NCBI RefSeq assembly: GCF_902779965.1
Contig: NZ_CACZDK010000009.1
Coordinates: 1 to 64,000, forward strand
Direction: 5' to 3'
Length of the DNA stretch: 64,000 nucleotides
Origin: Fibrobacter succinogenes
GTDB taxonomy: Bacteria > Fibrobacterota > Fibrobacteria > Fibrobacterales > Fibrobacteraceae
Shown piece by piece: positions 32,194 through 39,697 of this stretch (within the stretch, counting starts at the first letter, position 1; each line of letters opens with the position of its first letter). The position numbers and the translations under genes were made by a program. The notes beneath the pieces were generated by a model. The model made no database searches and was not told the DNA's origin. It worked only from the letters and a program-made list of their open reading frames with translations.

Positions 32194-33900
32194 CTACAGT
32201 CTCACCGTTTCATCGCACATTTCGCAAACCGCAGTACGGTGCGTCACGAAAATCATCGTCTTTTCCGGAAAAGCCTCAAATAAATGGCGGTAAAGTTCCG
32301 CTTCGGTTTCCTCATCCAGCGAAGAACTAATTTCGTCGAACAGCAAAATGTTGCCTGGGCGCAAAAGCCCACGGGCAATTGCAATACGCTGCGCCTGGCC
32401 TTCGCTAAGCCCATGCCCGCGTTCGCCAATTTCGCAATCCAGGCCATTCGGCAAATCATTCACAAATTCAGCACAAGCAATATGCAATACACGACGCATT
32501 TCTTCTTCAGTCGCATCGGTTTTTGCCAACTGCAAATTGTAGCGCACAGAGCCGTTCATCAGCGTGTTGCCTTGCGGCACATACACAAAATTCGAACGAG
32601 TCTCTTCCGAAACATCCACAACGGATCCATTCGAATAAATTACCATGCGACCGCTATCCGGCTTTACAAAACCGAGCAAAAGCCTGAACAAAGTCGTCTT
32701 GCCTTTACCAGTCTCGCCCATAATTGCAGCCTTGCTCCCGGGCATAAAATCGTGCGAAAAATTACGGACTATTTCGCAATCCCCACCGGCATACCCAAAG
32801 CGCACATTCTCAAACCGCAAGCCAAGGCGCCCGCGCAGTTCCTTTAACATTTTATCGGGCCGTTCTGAATGCGATTCCAAAGACATTTCAGAGGGAATTT
32901 TTCCGCACTCGTCCCCATGCGTTTCATCCGCGCACTCCCCTGCATCATCCGTGGCCTTTTTCTCCAGTTCATCCAATCGATCAATGCTAGCGGTCGAATG
33001 CACCAATTGCGGCACCATCCCAAGCAACGTCAAAATCGGGTGCTGGATTTGCCCAACCAACTGCAAAAAAGAAGTCATCACACCAAACGTAATCGTCCCA
33101 TCGCGCAGCCCAAGCCCGCCCCAAATAAAAGCTAGCAAATAGCCAAGTCCAAACGCAGAACCAATCGCAAAACGCGCGACCGTCGTAAAACGAGTCCGCC
33201 GCAGCACATCGCGTTCAAGCTTATTTTGTTTTAAACCAAGCCGTTCCATCACCCAGCTTTCGCTTTCGAGCGAACGCAACACGGCATTGTATTCCACGCC
33301 TTCTTGCACCTGCATCTGGATGCGGCTTTCGCCCTCGCGGATGTCCAACGTCATCTTGCGCAGCTTGCGCGAAATCAGCTTACCCACCACGACCATCACA
33401 GGCGTAAGCAACAGCAGCGCCCAAGCCAGCCGCGCATCAAACCAACGCATCAAAAGGAACGCACCCACAAGCTGGATTCCCGTCACCGCCATCTGCGGGA
33501 GCGTATCAATCACCGAAGTCGATACCGTTTCGATATCCTTCGAAAGCCTCGACGACACATCGCCCGAATGCAATTCATGCCCATCAAAAAGCGGTCGCTT
33601 AAACAACGTGCCAAAATAGAACAGCCTTAGCGCATTAGTCATTTTCACCGTAGCCGATGCGGTCATGTAATAATACAAGAGCCTAAGGACAATCGTCCCC
33701 ACCACAGTAAAAACAAGGAACGCAATCATACGCACAATATCATCTTGCGATCCAGTGCGTATCGTTTCGTCAATAAACCGCTTGCTGAGCCATATCATCA
33801 AAAGACCGCATGCCACGCGTGCGATCCCCGCGAAAATGCGAGCGACAATATTTACGCGAAAGCCCTTTGTTCCGCGCCACAGCCAAGCGATATATTTCAT
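32194..33900 (-). CDS. ABC exporter (fused permease and ATPase) of the peptide cluster
   Basis: The 568-residue half-transporter has a six-helix type I exporter domain (first about 290 residues) and a C-terminal ATPase with MGETGKGKTTLFRLL (Walker A), LSEGQAQRIAIARGLL (signature) and ILLFDEISSSLDEET (Walker B). There is no N-terminal C39 leader peptidase, unlike many peptide exporters. An acidic linker of about 45 residues with two Cys (GECADETHGDECGK) is inserted between permease and ATPase. The ATG at 33900 overlaps the PqqD-like gene stop (ATGA). It is the last gene of the operon, so the likely cargo is the modified peptide. Confidence 0.85.
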   Translation of the reverse strand: MKYIAWLWRGTKGFRVNIVARIFAGIARVACGLLMIWLSKRFIDETIRTGSQDDIVRMIAFLVFTVVGTIVLRLLYYYMTASATVKMTNALRLFYFGTLFKRPLFDGHELHSGDVSSRLSKDIETVSTSVIDTLPQMAVTGIQLVGAFLLMRWFDARLAWALLLLTPVMVVVGKLISRKLRKMTLDIREGESRIQMQVQEGVEYNAVLRSLESESWVMERLGLKQNKLERDVLRRTRFTTVARFAIGSAFGLGYLLAFIWGGLGLRDGTITFGVMTSFLQLVGQIQHPILTLLGMVPQLVHSTASIDRLDELEKKATDDAGECADETHGDECGKIPSEMSLESHSERPDKMLKELRGRLGLRFENVRFGYAGGDCEIVRNFSHDFMPGSKAAIMGETGKGKTTLFRLLLGFVKPDSGRMVIYSNGSVVDVSEETRSNFVYVPQGNTLMNGSVRYNLQLAKTDATEEEMRRVLHIACAEFVNDLPNGLDCEIGERGHGLSEGQAQRIAIARGLLRPGNILLFDEISSSLDEETEAELYRHLFEAFPEKTMIFVTHRTAVCEMCDETVRL

Positions 33901-34166
33901 TCGAGCACGTTCACCTTTTGCCATTCGGCGACAATCGCAGCCACATCGGCCTTAGCCTGTTCTGCGCTAACGTCGTATTCGCCGCAAAGCGCTTCAGCAA
34001 GGGAATCCACCGCAAAATCACCCATTTCTTCAGCTTTTTTCCAAAGCCAAGCCGCCGTTTCGTTCAAGCAAAGGAGGCGTCCAAAATCGAGAGCACCAAT
34101 ACCTTCACCCATAATCACCTGTTCACCGCACACATCGCGCAGCACAAAACCTTTCTTGATTTTCAT
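33897..34166 (-). CDS. PqqD-like peptide-recognition protein
   Basis: The 89-residue protein matches the PqqD fold pattern: a beta strand start KIKKGFVLRDVCGEQVIMGEG, then ALDFGRLLCLNETAAWLWKKAEE, then two helices (DSLAEALCGEYDVSAEQAKADVAAIVAEW). LNETAAWLWK corresponds to the family's LN-tga-iw segment. PqqD-like domains (RiPP recognition elements) bind leader peptides and hand them to modifying enzymes. Its place between the peptidase and exporter genes, with ATGA overlaps on both sides, supports that role here. Direct binding to the 37879-38016 peptide is inferred. Confidence 0.8.
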   Translation of the reverse strand: MKIKKGFVLRDVCGEQVIMGEGIGALDFGRLLCLNETAAWLWKKAEEMGDFAVDSLAEALCGEYDVSAEQAKADVAAIVAEWQKVNVLE

Positions 34167-34624
34167 TTTTTTATCTTCCTATAAATCCATAGTAAATAAC
34201 GTCTAACCGGTAACAGAATATACCATATTTTTGCAGCGATTCGGTATTGCCAAGCCGCCATAGCGTATTTTTTCCCATTCGGTTTTACAACGCAAATCAC
34301 CTTGGCACAAACATCCGATACTTCACAATGTTCCCGCAAAGCAAGATTTCCATCACCCATGAGCACCACATGCTCGCCATCCAGTGCAACAATTCGATGT
34401 ACAACGTAATGTTTTTCGGGTCCATTCGTTTTAACAAGAGCAAGCACCACATCGCCACGCTGTAAAGATTTCGGTTTTTCCAGAATGACGCTATCGCGCC
34501 CGCCCACGATAAACGGCAACATGCTCCGCCCGTTTACCGGAAACGTGACGCTTACGCCACTCTTGACCAGGCGAATCGCCTCGGCAAGAATCAGCGAGTC
34601 ATCTTTTTTTCCCGAACCGTTCAT
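34163..34624 (-). CDS. S24/S26-type serine peptidase
   Basis: The 153-residue protein resembles signal-peptidase-like S24/S26 proteins. The nucleophile Ser34 lies in VNGRSMLPFI (SxM motif). A second box, YVVHRIVAL with His76, replaces the usual catalytic Lys, as in S26B-type signal peptidases. GDGN follows. A C-terminal basic amphipathic or membrane segment (YILLPVRRYLLWIYRKIKK) could anchor it to the inner membrane. In this operon, with an exporter that has no C39 domain, it is the natural candidate for leader removal, but this is inference. ATGA overlaps link it to both neighbours. Confidence 0.75.
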   Translation of the reverse strand: MNGSGKKDDSLILAEAIRLVKSGVSVTFPVNGRSMLPFIVGGRDSVILEKPKSLQRGDVVLALVKTNGPEKHYVVHRIVALDGEHVVLMGDGNLALREHCEVSDVCAKVICVVKPNGKKYAMAAWQYRIAAKIWYILLPVRRYLLWIYRKIKK

Positions 34625-35544
34625 GGCGCGGAATCCCCATTTTTGCGAACGACGGTTTTACAACACAACTTTGCAGCCGCTTCATCCGGTAGGCATTCTA
34701 AATACCACGACGGAACACTAGCCACAAGAGCGTTTTGCGTTTTATGCAATCCATCGGCCATTTCTTTATTCCATCGCATTCCTGAAATACACGGCAAAAT
34801 GGCAGCGTATGCCGCCACACCTTTCAACGGCGAAATCCTATTGAACGGAGCTTGCGCAAGCAACACAAATCCGCCCATTTCCATTTCGACATTTTTGTAG
34901 CAAGGCGTCTTACCGCTCCACGGCGAGCCGAAAACTTTAGCAATCGGTTTTCCATCCGAATTTTTGAACAAACGCACTACAGGATTATCGTCATTAAACA
35001 GCTCGGAGCCCTCGTTGTACTTGAGCCAGAGCCTTGCATGGGTGCTTTTACCCGTTCCGCTCTTGCCCAAGAATAAATAGCCAAGGCCATTGTAACGGAT
35101 TCCCGCCGCATGGAACAACGCCGTATCCAATTCAGACGTTGCAAGCGCAAACAAAACCATCAACGAATTGTTCAAAGCAAAAACATGCTTTCGCTGGACA
35201 TCATCAACCGACATCGCCAAAACATCTCTCGGAGTCAAATATAAAGCGGACTGTTTTAGCGTACTATCGCAAACCAAAACACCCGTAGATATGCCGAACA
35301 ATAAAAATTCAAAAACGAGCAATCCATCAGCAGTACGCCCGCAAATAATAGATTGACCTTCTTCATCCTGACGGATTTCTTCGGTGTATCTGGGCGCGGT
35401 AGCTTCTTGCACGGCAACCGAAAATACAGGATTTTCACACAAATCAACCGCAAATGGAGCGTAATTACTCATTTGCGATAAAATTTCATCGCCGGTTTCT
35501 ACCGCAAAAAAATGTTCTGCAACTTTAAAAAACTTCTTAATCAT
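34621..35544 (-). CDS. HPr-kinase-like (HprK) protein
   Basis: The 307-residue protein has a C-terminal P-loop kinase domain like HPr kinase/phosphorylase. Walker A is GKSGTGKST (residues 160-168), and the acidic pair in LFNDDNPVV (D185, D186) matches the family's catalytic loop. The N-terminal half lacks the usual HprK Hpr_kinase_N fold, so it is the stand-alone relative also annotated as PEP-carboxykinase-like. Related kinases in lasso-peptide clusters phosphorylate a Ser of the precursor. Here the precursor-like peptide or a partner could be the substrate. The start is coupled to the upstream nucleotidyltransferase gene by ATGA. Confidence 0.78.
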   Translation of the reverse strand: MIKKFFKVAEHFFAVETGDEILSQMSNYAPFAVDLCENPVFSVAVQEATAPRYTEEIRQDEEGQSIICGRTADGLLVFEFLLFGISTGVLVCDSTLKQSALYLTPRDVLAMSVDDVQRKHVFALNNSLMVLFALATSELDTALFHAAGIRYNGLGYLFLGKSGTGKSTHARLWLKYNEGSELFNDDNPVVRLFKNSDGKPIAKVFGSPWSGKTPCYKNVEMEMGGFVLLAQAPFNRISPLKGVAAYAAILPCISGMRWNKEMADGLHKTQNALVASVPSWYLECLPDEAAAKLCCKTVVRKNGDSAP

Positions 35545-36701
35545 CGAGCTTCTTTTTTTACAAATTTAGAGTGAGACAAATCCCAAAGCGACAATCGCCG
35601 CAATTTAATCCTAACAGAAATAGATCTAGCAAAACGTTTCCAGTATTCCAATTCGCACATTAAAACATCAACAGGAGCAAACCAAAACACATGCAGATTA
35701 CGCCAACGATGCTTCAAAAAGCGAACAACAAAGTTCCTTGAAAATTCATTCAACGAATCCGTTGCATAAATGCCAAAATTACCGCCTTTTTGTATTAAGG
35801 ATAGCATTTTTCGGCCAAGTTTTTCATCAGGTTTGCAAAGCATCATGTGTTCATCGAGTTCAAACACGTAGCCCATAATCCACATGAGCGCCTTGCAAAC
35901 TTTCAAAAGTCCAAAATTCGAAAGTTCCTTTGCAATTTCGCACCGATCATCCTCGGAAGAATGTTTCAGCAACATGCAGTAATCCAGAATTTGTTTTAGC
36001 CCTACACCATCCCTAATAAAATGAACATGAATGTGGGCCAACTGCATCGCAAGCGCAAACTTGATTGACGGAACATAAAAACCTTCGCAACTCCGTTCTA
36101 CATTCCGGATTTCTTTTTCCAAAAAACACAAGAGACGCGAACTCGCAAACGGATTCCACGTGCCAAAAGACGGCCTGTAATGAACCTCTACGGGAATACC
36201 ATTTTCTTCTGGATCCAAGTGAACATGGTGCGGTGCGTTTAAATCCCATTCATGAATTTTATACCCCAATTTTTTCAATATCGCAAAAACATGGTCGCGC
36301 CCGCCATCAACCCACAAGTCAATATCCCCGACCTGTCGCATATAGGGGTCCGGGTAAAGCAAAGCATTGGCAGGCCCCTTGAGCACCGCTGTTTTGCACC
36401 CTTGTACCGCAAACAATTCCGTAAGCCTAGCAGCTTCCGCATTCAAAAGCTTATTCTGCCCCTTGATGGTTTCCGCTTCGAGAGCCCAACGCAATACAAT
36501 TTTATGAGGCGGCTGTAAATCATGAGGCAAACGGCAAATAGCCCTATAAACAACCCCTGTAACAAGTTGCTTGGCACATTCCGTATGTAGATTATCCCAA
36601 GATTCTGCGATCAGCTTATGCGAAAAAGAGCACGGCGAGCGTTCGTCATCTAGCGCTATCCGCAAAAGTTCATACAAAGCATCTTTTTCAAAGCGTTCCA
36701 T
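35541..36701 (-). CDS. PF14907-type nucleotidyltransferase family protein (second copy)
   Basis: The 386-residue protein belongs to the uncharacterised nucleotidyltransferase family NTP_transf_5. The family pattern is AVLKGPANALLYPDPYMRQVGDIDLWV: K108 and the metal-binding pair D126 and D128 (DxD) are present. HLDPEENGIPVEVHYRP continues the domain, with a helical C-terminal half. It is paralogous to the upstream copy at 36775 along most of its length. The start at 36701 aligns exactly with that paralogue; an ATG at 36755 would add a hydrophobic extension and has no ribosome site. The substrate is unknown: it may transfer a nucleotide or sugar-like group onto the peptide. Confidence 0.8.
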   Translation of the reverse strand: MERFEKDALYELLRIALDDERSPCSFSHKLIAESWDNLHTECAKQLVTGVVYRAICRLPHDLQPPHKIVLRWALEAETIKGQNKLLNAEAARLTELFAVQGCKTAVLKGPANALLYPDPYMRQVGDIDLWVDGGRDHVFAILKKLGYKIHEWDLNAPHHVHLDPEENGIPVEVHYRPSFGTWNPFASSRLLCFLEKEIRNVERSCEGFYVPSIKFALAMQLAHIHVHFIRDGVGLKQILDYCMLLKHSSEDDRCEIAKELSNFGLLKVCKALMWIMGYVFELDEHMMLCKPDEKLGRKMLSLIQKGGNFGIYATDSLNEFSRNFVVRFLKHRWRNLHVFWFAPVDVLMCELEYWKRFARSISVRIKLRRLSLWDLSHSKFVKKEAR

Positions 36702-36774
36702 CAATTCACAAATTAGTAAAAAAATGTGTAAAATAAAAAAAGAGGACTCCGCCATGGCGAAGTTTCAATTTTAG

Positions 36775-37875
36775 TTAAAGTGCAATTTTCCGACGTCGAA
36801 CACGCTCGGGAATAAGCGAAATTGTTTTTACCCAGTAATTAGATTCCTTATAAATGTAATACCGGGGAGCTATCGGGAATATGCGCAAATTCTGAACACG
36901 GTCGTCGAACCAGCGCTTAAGCACATTACGACGATAAGCTTTTTTCGCCCCAAAATCGCCCTCTGCAAATGTAGACTTGTATAGGACTCTGCTATAAAAT
37001 CTGCTAGGCTTGCAAAGCATTTTATCTTGAGGTAACTTGAAAACACGCCCAAGAACACCCATGATGGCGGCACAACCGCTTTTCATACCAATTTTTTTTG
37101 CAAACTCCCACGCATATTGGCGATCGGCCTCAGTTGAACGAGTCAGCAGTATATAATAATCCATATAATGCCTCAGGCTCACTCCAGAAAGCAACGCGTG
37201 TTTGAACAAATGAACTAATTGCATCAGCAAAGCAAATCGGATACTCGGGCTATAAAATCCTTCAGGCGTAAGCGTTACATTCTCAAGTTCAGGTTCAAGA
37301 ACTTTTAGGACTTCGTCATAGGTTTTATTTAACCGAATCGCGTATGTTGCAGAAGTAGGCTTGTGATGAACCTCTACAAGAACACCTTTCTCGTTTATAA
37401 ATTCAATGTCGTGATAATCAGGAGTTAAATGTTCAAGGTTTTGAATCCCCAGACTATGCAATAACTCCTGAACTTTGTCGTAACCGCCGGGAACATAGAT
37501 GTCGATATCGCCGGGTTGCCTTGAAAACGGATCAGGATACAAGCGAGCGTTAGCTTGACCTTTCAAAATAGCACTGCGGAACCCGCGTTCGGCAAACAGT
37601 TGTGTGTAACGGGCCGATTCCTGATTCATAAGGCGGTTCTTGCCGCGGATAGCTTCGGCATCCCTCGCCCAAAGCAACATTAACAAATGCGGAGGCAGCG
37701 ATTCCTTGGGCAAATGGGCAAAGGCATTATAAACAACCCCTAAAAGCGTTTGGCGGTGCGCCATTGTATAGAGCGACTGCCATTCTTCAGAAGTCGGAAT
37801 ATACGGAAAAACCTGCGAGAGCCCGAGAGACACTCGCAGGAGTTCACAAAACATTTCGTCAAGAGAATTTTTCAA
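36775..37875 (-). CDS. PF14907-type nucleotidyltransferase family protein (first copy)
   Basis: The 366-residue protein is a paralogue of the next gene. Motifs are AILKGQANARLYPDPFSRQPGDIDIYV (K105, D123, D125) and NEKGVLVEVHHKPTS. It starts with TTG at 37875, three bases after the stop of the precursor-like peptide gene, with AAGG in that gene's last codons as the ribosome site. The TTG start aligns with the ATG of the paralogue, which supports it. Two divergent copies in one operon suggest either a heterodimer or two successive modifications. Confidence 0.8.
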   Translation of the reverse strand: MKNSLDEMFCELLRVSLGLSQVFPYIPTSEEWQSLYTMAHRQTLLGVVYNAFAHLPKESLPPHLLMLLWARDAEAIRGKNRLMNQESARYTQLFAERGFRSAILKGQANARLYPDPFSRQPGDIDIYVPGGYDKVQELLHSLGIQNLEHLTPDYHDIEFINEKGVLVEVHHKPTSATYAIRLNKTYDEVLKVLEPELENVTLTPEGFYSPSIRFALLMQLVHLFKHALLSGVSLRHYMDYYILLTRSTEADRQYAWEFAKKIGMKSGCAAIMGVLGRVFKLPQDKMLCKPSRFYSRVLYKSTFAEGDFGAKKAYRRNVLKRWFDDRVQNLRIFPIAPRYYIYKESNYWVKTISLIPERVRRRKIAL

Positions 37876-37878
37876 GGC

Positions 37879-38016
37879 TTAAGCCTTGGGATTTGTAACA
37901 TCGTCATTATTCATGCCAAAGATAACATTTTCCCTAGCAGAACCGGCCAAAAGGGTTGTCTTGTATTCGAAATCAATTGTATCCATCTTAGGAGTTTCGT
38001 ATTCTTTTTTCTTCAT
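37879..38016 (-). CDS. 45-residue precursor-like peptide of the modification cluster
   Basis: This short gene lies in the gap between the secreted-protein gene and the first nucleotidyltransferase gene. ATG at 38014-38016 has an excellent AAAAGGAG Shine-Dalgarno 8 bases upstream; TAA is at 37879-37881. The peptide begins MKKKEYETPK, continues with acidic and aromatic residues, then TTLLAGS at residues 20-26, and a C-terminal part with RENVIFGMNNDD (28-39) ending in Lys-Ala. It has no Cys and no signal peptide. Small leader peptides of this kind (Lys-rich start, PKM, then LLAGS) are typical of RiPP precursors in related bacteria. A likely leader/core border is after Gly25 or Ser26. Its position as the gene before five modification and export genes is the main support. 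Confidence 0.75.
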   Translation of the reverse strand: MKKKEYETPKMDTIDFEYKTTLLAGSARENVIFGMNNDDVTNPKA

Positions 38017-38034
38017 AATTTTTGCTCCTTTTGA

Positions 38035-38916
38035 CTAGTGCTTAATGACTTTCTTGTTGACGTACATGATTTTGTTCTGGGGCTTGCCGTTCAGCTTGCG
38101 GCCCTTGAGGTCATAGTAACGGTCCTGCATCTGGATGTCGCCGGTTCTGGTGTTCATCTTGCCGATGGACAATGTCCCGCCGTCCTTATCCAAGAAACGA
38201 ACTTTGATGACATCCGGGAGAGTTTCCTCGGCTGCAACTTTACCCAAACCATACACAGGGCTAGCATTTTTACAGGTCAAGTAAGCACGCATTGGATAAA
38301 TTGTCGCGCTGAGAGCTTTAACAAAAACACCATCAGCAGCATCGAAACCATAAAGGTTTTCCGCAGATCCCCAACTATTTTGCACATATGAACCAGTGAA
38401 TTGCCAGCAAGTACTATTCAACGTAGTAGCATGTTCGTTATCGCCGGTAGACACAATTGTATAAGAACCTGAAGTTTTTTCGAAATCAAATCTTTGAGGA
38501 GTACCCGAGACCTCAACAATGTATGGAGTGTTCGCTTTAATTTCATCGGTACTTTTCATGTCAAGCGTGAACGTCTCCGGATTATAGCTCTCCGGGTAAT
38601 AAGCAGCTTCCACCTTTCCTTCGCCCATCGTAAATTCCTTAGCTTCGTTTACCTTAACGGCCACCGGAAGCATAAGAGTGGAGTACGTTTTTGCAGCTGC
38701 ATCACGAAAAACGACAATTTTATTAATCCCAGATAAATTAGAGGAAATATCATCATCTCCAATCAAGACTTTATTCGTAGTCCCCCTCGAAAACAGCTGC
38801 AATTCAGTATTAGCAACAGTAGACCAACCAGTCCCATCCGCTCCCCACGCAGCGGTTGTCCCCATCAGAGCGACTGTCGCCACGGCGGCAAAACGTGTCA
38901 GATGTAATTTTTTCAT
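38035..38916 (-). CDS. secreted protein, first gene of the peptide cluster operon
   Basis: The 293-residue product has a clear signal peptide (FAAVATVALMGTTAAWGA). The mature protein is beta-rich, with many Thr/Ser and strand pairs such as TYSTLMLPVAVKVNEAKEFTMG. The C-terminus (YYDLKGRKLNGKPQNKIMYVNKKVIKH) resembles the short C-terminal domain of many Prevotella/Bacteroidetes secreted proteins (YDLxGRK, then IYxxNGKK). I do not know its function. The stop is 18 bases before the precursor peptide ATG, so they share a transcript. An AAGGA ribosome site lies 10 bases before the ATG. Confidence 0.65.
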   Translation of the reverse strand: MKKLHLTRFAAVATVALMGTTAAWGADGTGWSTVANTELQLFSRGTTNKVLIGDDDISSNLSGINKIVVFRDAAAKTYSTLMLPVAVKVNEAKEFTMGEGKVEAAYYPESYNPETFTLDMKSTDEIKANTPYIVEVSGTPQRFDFEKTSGSYTIVSTGDNEHATTLNSTCWQFTGSYVQNSWGSAENLYGFDAADGVFVKALSATIYPMRAYLTCKNASPVYGLGKVAAEETLPDVIKVRFLDKDGGTLSIGKMNTRTGDIQMQDRYYDLKGRKLNGKPQNKIMYVNKKVIKH

Positions 38917-39312: not shown

Positions 39313-39398
39313 CCTTTATAGGATTTTCAAAATTTTAGCTGATGGTCGCATCCCCGTCGTCCTGAGTGTAACGAAGGACCCAGTCAAATCTTGTACAG

Positions 39399-39697
39399 CA
39401 AAGCCCTCTTACGAGGGCTTCTTCGCATCGGATAATCGGCTACCGCCCTCCAACTGTTTTTGATGAACCTTCGATACTCAAAAGCCCTCTCACGAGGGCT
39501 TCTTCGTATCGGATAATCGGCTACCGCCCTCCGACTGATTTTGATGAACCTTCGATACTCAAAAGCCCTCTCACGAGGGCTTCTTCGTATCGGATAATCG
39601 GCTACCGCCCTCCGACTGTTTTTGATGAACCTTCGATACTCAAAAGCCCTCTCACGAGGGCTTCTTCGCATCGGATAATCGGCTACCGCCCTCCGAC
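39399..39697. repeat. 81-bp tandem array copying the tldD stop and terminator
   Basis: Four units with an exact 81-base period. Each unit carries the hairpin AAGCCCTC-TNAC-GAGGGCTT, at 39401, 39482, 39563 and 39644. Each also carries the 15 bases that end tldD (CTACCGCCCTCCGAC on the plus strand), at 39440, 39521, 39602 and 39683; only the last belongs to the real gene. The other three are duplicated gene tails with their terminator. The period is a multiple of three, so it also makes a 95-codon open frame, which I take to be meaningless. The rest of the gap (38917-39398) holds promoter, palindromes and terminators but no gene. Confidence 0.8.

Follow-up and report, generated by a model that had tools for sequence, protein, structure and literature searches.

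An eight-gene operon of Fibrobacter succinogenes probably encodes a maturation and export cassette resembling those for ribosomally synthesized and post-translationally modified peptides (RiPPs), which would serve leader/core peptides dispersed over the genome and coupled to cargo of the type IX secretion system (T9SS). The operon occupies positions 32194-38916 of the window, by which we mean the whole stretch of 64,000 nucleotides analysed here, taken from contig C9 (NZ_CACZDK010000009.1) of a 4.09 Mb genome (assembly GCF_902779965.1). The gene-level facts are read directly from the sequence, and from them we infer the chemistry, mechanism and product discussed below. An earlier sequence-only reading of this DNA had proposed a RiPP-like system, a view that is supported in part and strengthened here; it had missed the pairing with T9SS cargo, the dispersed multi-copy peptides accompanied by a single cassette, and the sharing of the system with Prevotella.

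All eight open reading frames (ORFs) were confirmed on the minus strand within this span, in agreement with the one-strand operon proposed previously. The first encodes a secreted protein of 293 residues (38035-38916) with a Sec signal peptide, judged by eye, and a C-terminal sorting tail (38038-38247; alignment A5; LPDVIKVRFLDKDGGTLSIGKMNTRTGDIQMQDRYYDLKGRKLNGKPQNKIMYVNKKVIKH) that is common to the cargo proteins of the system and resembles the short C-terminal domain (CTD) of T9SS substrates. It is followed by the 45-residue precursor peptide (37879-38016), with leader MKKKEYETPKMDTIDFEYKTTLLAGS and core ARENVIFGMNNDDVTNPKA, and by two PF14907 nucleotidyltransferases (NT), NT1 (36775-37875), which has a TTG start 3 bp beyond the peptide stop, and NT2 (35541-36755). 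The remaining genes encode an HprK-fold kinase (34621-35544), a signal-peptidase-like protease of the S26 Ser-His type (34163-34624), a PqqD-like protein corresponding to a stand-alone RiPP recognition element (RRE; 33897-34166) and an ATP-binding cassette (ABC) exporter without a C39 peptidase domain (32194-33924, with ATG 33900 as the likely start). The four ATGA overlaps reported from the second nucleotidyltransferase onward are present at NT2/HprK (35541-35544), HprK/S26 (34621-34624) and S26/PqqD (34163-34166), the fourth, PqqD/ABC (33897-33900), holding if the ABC gene begins at its second Met.

The 45-residue peptide is a member of a large family with the leader K-K-x-Y-x-x-P-x-M-x-V-V…L-L-x-x-S followed by a variable acidic core, and this combination of a conserved leader with a variable putative core is the classical RiPP leader/core signature. 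Tyr6, Pro9, Leu22 and Ser26 are invariant in an alignment of 30 sequences from Fibrobacter and Prevotella (A4), and the cores are hypervariable (median 18 residues, mean charge -3.6, Asp 14%, Gly 12%). The peptide profile matches 35 of the 38 Fibrobacter genomes, at up to 13 places each and on different contigs, as well as six Prevotella/Bacteroidales genomes (1-15 places), and two peptides often occur in tandem. Neither the peptide nor the tail of the cargo received a name from the curated NCBIfam or Pfam models.

Almost every peptide gene lies immediately downstream of one that encodes a secreted protein, with a typical gap of 0-40 bp. These proteins range from about 290 to more than 2000 residues, some carry InlB/GLUG-type repeats, and they share the C-terminal tail, the motifs of which (an Ile-containing cleavage region, YDLxGR, GxY and a basic end; alignments A5 and A8) are those described for T9SS short CTDs (PMC11969387). 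SprA/Sov (SprA_N, PF14349) was detected in 36 of the 38 Fibrobacter genomes, including those without the cassette. Since no NCBIfam sorting-domain model matched the tail, the assignment to T9SS rests on the tail motifs and the presence of SprA/Sov; judged by these, what had been listed simply as a 'secreted protein' is a predicted short-CTD cargo and part of the system. Across five genomes searched whole, a peptide gene follows at least 25 of 33 tail genes at a distance of no more than 300 bp (at least six of seven in the genome studied here), a fairer figure than that from the fetched loci (78/93 tail genes with a downstream peptide versus 2.2 expected, maximum 6, at random placement), because the latter were picked around nucleotidyltransferase, kinase or peptide matches. 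The one exception among the seven tail genes of the F. succinogenes genome, at contig C10 95582-95767, has no detectable downstream peptide. Tail and peptide copy numbers correlate across genomes (rho 0.76), genomes devoid of the cassette have no tail match or one weak match, and the cargo-peptide pairing also occurs in Prevotella.

The machinery, by contrast with the peptides, is not multiplied. The PqqD gene is single-copy in 34 of the 38 Fibrobacter genomes, all 34 being among the 35 that carry peptides, and the three peptide-free genomes (G001, G014 and G032) have no PqqD match or a weak one at most. By this distribution, a dispersed multi-copy peptide family is apparently served by one shared cassette.

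Profile searches and alignments place the enzymes in families compatible with such a role. Both nucleotidyltransferases match PF14907 (E = 1e-45 for NT1 and 6e-45 for NT2; Pfam/NCBIfam search), and the catalytic residues Asp123, Asp125 and Glu168 of NT1 are intact and invariant in the alignment. The PqqD-like protein matches PF05402 (E = 1e-13), with leader binding as its predicted function, the exporter combines PF00664 and PF00005, and the peptidase scores above the curated cut-off of PF10502 (Peptidase_S26, E = 3e-5), its invariant boxes with Ser34, His76 (where a Lys would be expected) and Asp91 matching the Ser-His type of S26 protease. The kinase, which the sequence-only reading had called HprK-like, is weakly related by sequence to HPr-kinase models (PF07475, E = 0.07; TIGR04355, 0.003; TIGR04249 ScmC, 0.002); profile searches against PDB for the cassette proteins likewise gave only weak matches (HprK 1ko7, E = 0.8; LexA/signal peptidase, 0.06-0.1; the lasso RRE TfuB1, 0.016). 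The structural model of the kinase bears out the name: the AlphaFold prediction from a 32-sequence alignment is confident (predicted local distance difference test, pLDDT, 93.6), and Foldseek returned 51 matches at E ≤ 1e-3, all of which, among the matches listed, are phosphoenolpyruvate carboxykinase (PEPCK) or HprK/P, so that the modelled kinase has the HPr-kinase/PEPCK fold. His145, Lys166, Asp185 and Asp186 are invariant in both 12- and 32-sequence alignments, and His-Lys-Asp-Asp is the catalytic motif of lasso-peptide kinases such as PadeK (PMC9266682).

PF14907 is present in 41 of 61 relatives, and the order NT-HprK-S26-PqqD-ABC is kept in about 20 other Fibrobacter genomes, often with 4-bp overlaps and in some cases broken by contig ends. 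A search of a bacterial and archaeal genome collection with the kinase alignment yielded 588 relatives, of which the best 80 were examined; all of these belong to Fibrobacter, Prevotella/Segatella or other Bacteroidales, many of them from the rumen, and most retain HprK-S26-PqqD-ABC. The sequence-only reading had set in advance, as its tests, that the gene set be kept together elsewhere and that the short peptide be conserved beside it, and both patterns are found, so the arrangement is not due to chance. It had also called the system RiPP-like while noting that genes for radical SAM, lasso cyclase and YcaO proteins are missing, which fits what surrounds 105 kinase loci: no additional family is present at more than 10 of them, and neither a radical SAM gene nor an Asn-synthetase-like cyclase recurs, no genome-wide search having been made for either of these two. 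YcaO is absent from the whole F. succinogenes genome, as is any match to the lasso protease PF13471. A hidden additional enzyme was sought and rejected as a candidate, the first all-against-all comparison of the 105 loci producing only antisense shadow ORFs.

Variations on the arrangement were observed among the relatives. The same gene set is rearranged at five Prevotella/Bacteroidales loci (L137, L139, L144, L153 and L166), with PqqD first, S26 before HprK or an inverted block, and one Prevotella locus (L150, 1-13600), where the cassette is divergent around the kinase, holds three tail genes within 13 kb, two of them followed by a peptide. At a locus from a different family of the same phylum (L070, from 8453), a PqqD-like ORF and a PF14907 gene share 11 bp, and this overlap in a distant relative suggests that the partnership of nucleotidyltransferase and PqqD predates the cassette. 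Just upstream of the operon in the window lies a direct-repeat array, the ORF at 39384-39671 consisting of near-identical repeats (RRSPRERAFEYRRFIKNSRRAVADYPI).

The intact catalytic residues, together with the precedent of PsmK and PsmN, are the grounds on which we propose phosphorylation, addition of a sugar or nucleotide, trimming and export of the peptide. The PqqD-like protein would bind the leader (KKxYxxPxM...LLxxS), whereupon the HprK-fold kinase would phosphorylate a hydroxyl, most likely that of the junction Ser26, because this residue is near-invariant (present in 101 of 113 peptides with unique cores) while several cores hold no Ser or Thr; with 18 of the 113 unique cores free of both, phosphorylation of one and the same residue throughout the family would leave the junction Ser as the only candidate. 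The PF14907 enzyme could then place a sugar or nucleotide on that phosphate, as PsmN adds hexoses on the phospho-Ser produced by PsmK in pseudomycoidin (PMC9266682). For the phosphate- or nucleotide-derived groups previously envisaged on the peptide, the nearest experimental precedent is one of phosphate and hexose. The S26 protease would cut off the leader near LLxxS, and the ABC exporter would carry the product into the periplasm, where it may meet its Sec-exported partner cargo and, together with it, be either displayed at the cell surface or released there.

The relationship between peptide and cargo might extend to the cores. The first peptide of a tandem has a core similar to the LPxxIxVxxxD strand of the cargo beside it. 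Judged from the cleavage motif reported for such cargo, this strand would be the final one left in the mature protein. Similarity at the peptides' own loci averages 25.0 versus 19.9 for permuted pairings (z = 4.9; 0/5000 permutations), with pairs such as DDLPESLDVIIIGK / DELPESMDVVIRGE (L061), MDVEFINRD / MDVEFVNRE (L050) and MEVEFIER / MEVDFVER (L038). At L061, 6 of the 9 identical residues use different codons, so that this likeness is not a fresh copy at the DNA level. In the same permutation test, last-of-tandem and single peptides showed no resemblance to their own cargo, nor does the single peptide of the window match its cargo; mimicry by all peptides, for which an earlier test (best 8-mer, all peptide classes pooled) had been suggestive only, was rejected, and the phenomenon is limited to the first of tandem pairs. 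We tentatively entertain the idea of a new RiPP class, a single cassette modifying and exporting many peptides that are each pre-matched to their own T9SS cargo; with some cores copying the last mature strand of the cargo just before the sortase cleavage region, the modified peptide might bind, compete with or be displayed through the surface protein, a possibility for which the odds are at present less than even.

The same features could be read as those of dedicated T9SS cargo partners, that is, beta-strand donors or folding/sorting factors rather than natural products, which the cassette would process and export to bind the last strand or the CTD of the cargo in the periplasm. The location of the peptide 0-40 bp from the cargo gene at most loci, and the likeness of first-of-tandem cores to their own cargo, mostly with different codons, speak for such a role, but the remaining peptides, including that of the window, lack the mimicry, and a kinase, a nucleotidyltransferase and an RRE exceed the needs of a chaperone peptide. 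We consider this reading unlikely, and it can be compatible with a RiPP-like pathway coupled to T9SS cargo. A conventional secreted bacteriocin or signal of the RiPP type, for which the surface protein would be a receptor, immunity factor or carrier, appears improbable: although an RRE, a protease, an ABC exporter and short variable peptides make up the usual layout and the cores are indeed hypervariable, they are acidic rather than cationic, a single genome can hold as many as 13-15 distinct peptides, the majority of which come with a large cargo protein of their own, and the 105 loci show no recurrent immunity gene, regulator or outer-membrane partner for export. A lasso-peptide pathway with its cyclase and protease encoded in trans would account for the kinase and the nucleotidyltransferase, which are known lasso tailoring enzymes (PMC9266682), and for a PqqD-like protein that is nearest to the lasso PqqD model NF033530 (E = 2e-5), but the score of 24.4 bits is below the cut-off of 70; this pathway was rejected as scarcely credible, given the absence of a PF13471 protease from the genome and of a conserved C-terminal Ser from the precursors.

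Several observations weigh against the preferred interpretation of a RiPP-like cassette serving cargo-linked peptides. A C-terminal Ser, the residue modified by PadeK and PsmK, ends just one of the 113 unique cores, and the Fibrobacter-based profile called no peptide at many Prevotella cassette loci. The supporting co-occurrence of PqqD and peptide among the 38 Fibrobacter genomes (Fisher p = 5e-4) is drawn from congeneric genomes, which are not independent, and is clearly broken once, in a Fibrobacter metagenome-assembled genome (G018) with six peptides and five tails and no PqqD match, perhaps owing to an incomplete assembly. The AlphaFold model of the cargo tail is poor (pLDDT 47), which makes Foldseek on it meaningless. 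Furthermore, some nucleotidyltransferase genes have no peptide, tail gene or cassette nearby, for instance, a second tandem PF14907 pair on contig C18 of the same genome (L005, 7108-9474); because neither peptide nor cassette stands beside this pair, the enzyme may also act elsewhere or on distant peptides.

If the coupling of a RiPP-like cassette to T9SS cargo is borne out, dominant fibre-degrading and rumen bacteria would possess an abundant and apparently undescribed peptide-modification system, in which a kinase and a nucleotidyltransferase stand in for the usual class-defining enzymes, and research on peptide natural products would be joined to that on type IX secretion. Leader binding, modification of the junction Ser with phosphate or sugar, cleavage at LLxxS and the interaction of peptide with cargo are predictions that are directly testable, for example, in cultured Segatella baroniae B14, and the new precursor profile is usable for genome mining.

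The closest known parallels are the lasso tailoring pairs (PadeK/ThcoK/PsmK and PsmN, with PqqD-type B1) of paeninodin and pseudomycoidin (PMC9266682), which likewise combine an HprK-fold kinase bearing His-Lys-Asp-Asp, a nucleotidyltransferase, a stand-alone PqqD, an ABC exporter and a short precursor. Unlike these, the cassette described here has an S26 Ser-His protease in place of the B2 protease (PF13471), has no cyclase, and goes with precursors that lack the C-terminal Ser and are many, dispersed and mostly located behind a T9SS cargo gene. The SynChlorMet (Scm) cassette also unites HprK-like (ScmC) and PqqD-like (ScmD) proteins with a small peptide, but its models score far under cut-off here (ScmC 17.5 versus 125 bits, ScmD 13.2 versus 100). 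That cassette includes radical SAM proteins, none of which recurs around the loci studied here. HprK-like kinases are common to the HPr-rel-A type systems as well (TIGR04352 and related), for which the score is 11.6 versus a cut-off of 200.

A central machinery with many unlinked precursors of conserved leader and variable core recalls the prochlorosin-type pathways (PMC10783134); in contrast to these, no lanthionine synthetase is involved here and the precursor genes are linked to those of secreted cargo. Keyword searches of open-access surveys that cover RiPPs of anaerobes, Bacteroidales and rumen bacteria (PMC7533575, PMC10352776, PMC13289728 and PMC4289311) found no description of the system; PMC4289311 lists no RiPP for its single Fibrobacteres genome, and the generic 'RRE-containing' calls of PMC13289728 may include the system unnoticed. 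The open-access literature likewise yielded no description of the cargo-peptide pairing. The cargo itself resembles the short-CTD T9SS cargo of Prevotella intermedia (PMC11969387), with which it shares the Ile cleavage region, YDLxGR (motif B), GxY (motif D) and the basic end (motif E); whereas that account mentions no small proteins downstream, the tail genes examined here are paired with peptides and a central cassette. RiPPs are as such a known kind of product; on the boldest reading, the proposed coupling of a RiPP-like pathway to T9SS cargo would be genuinely new.

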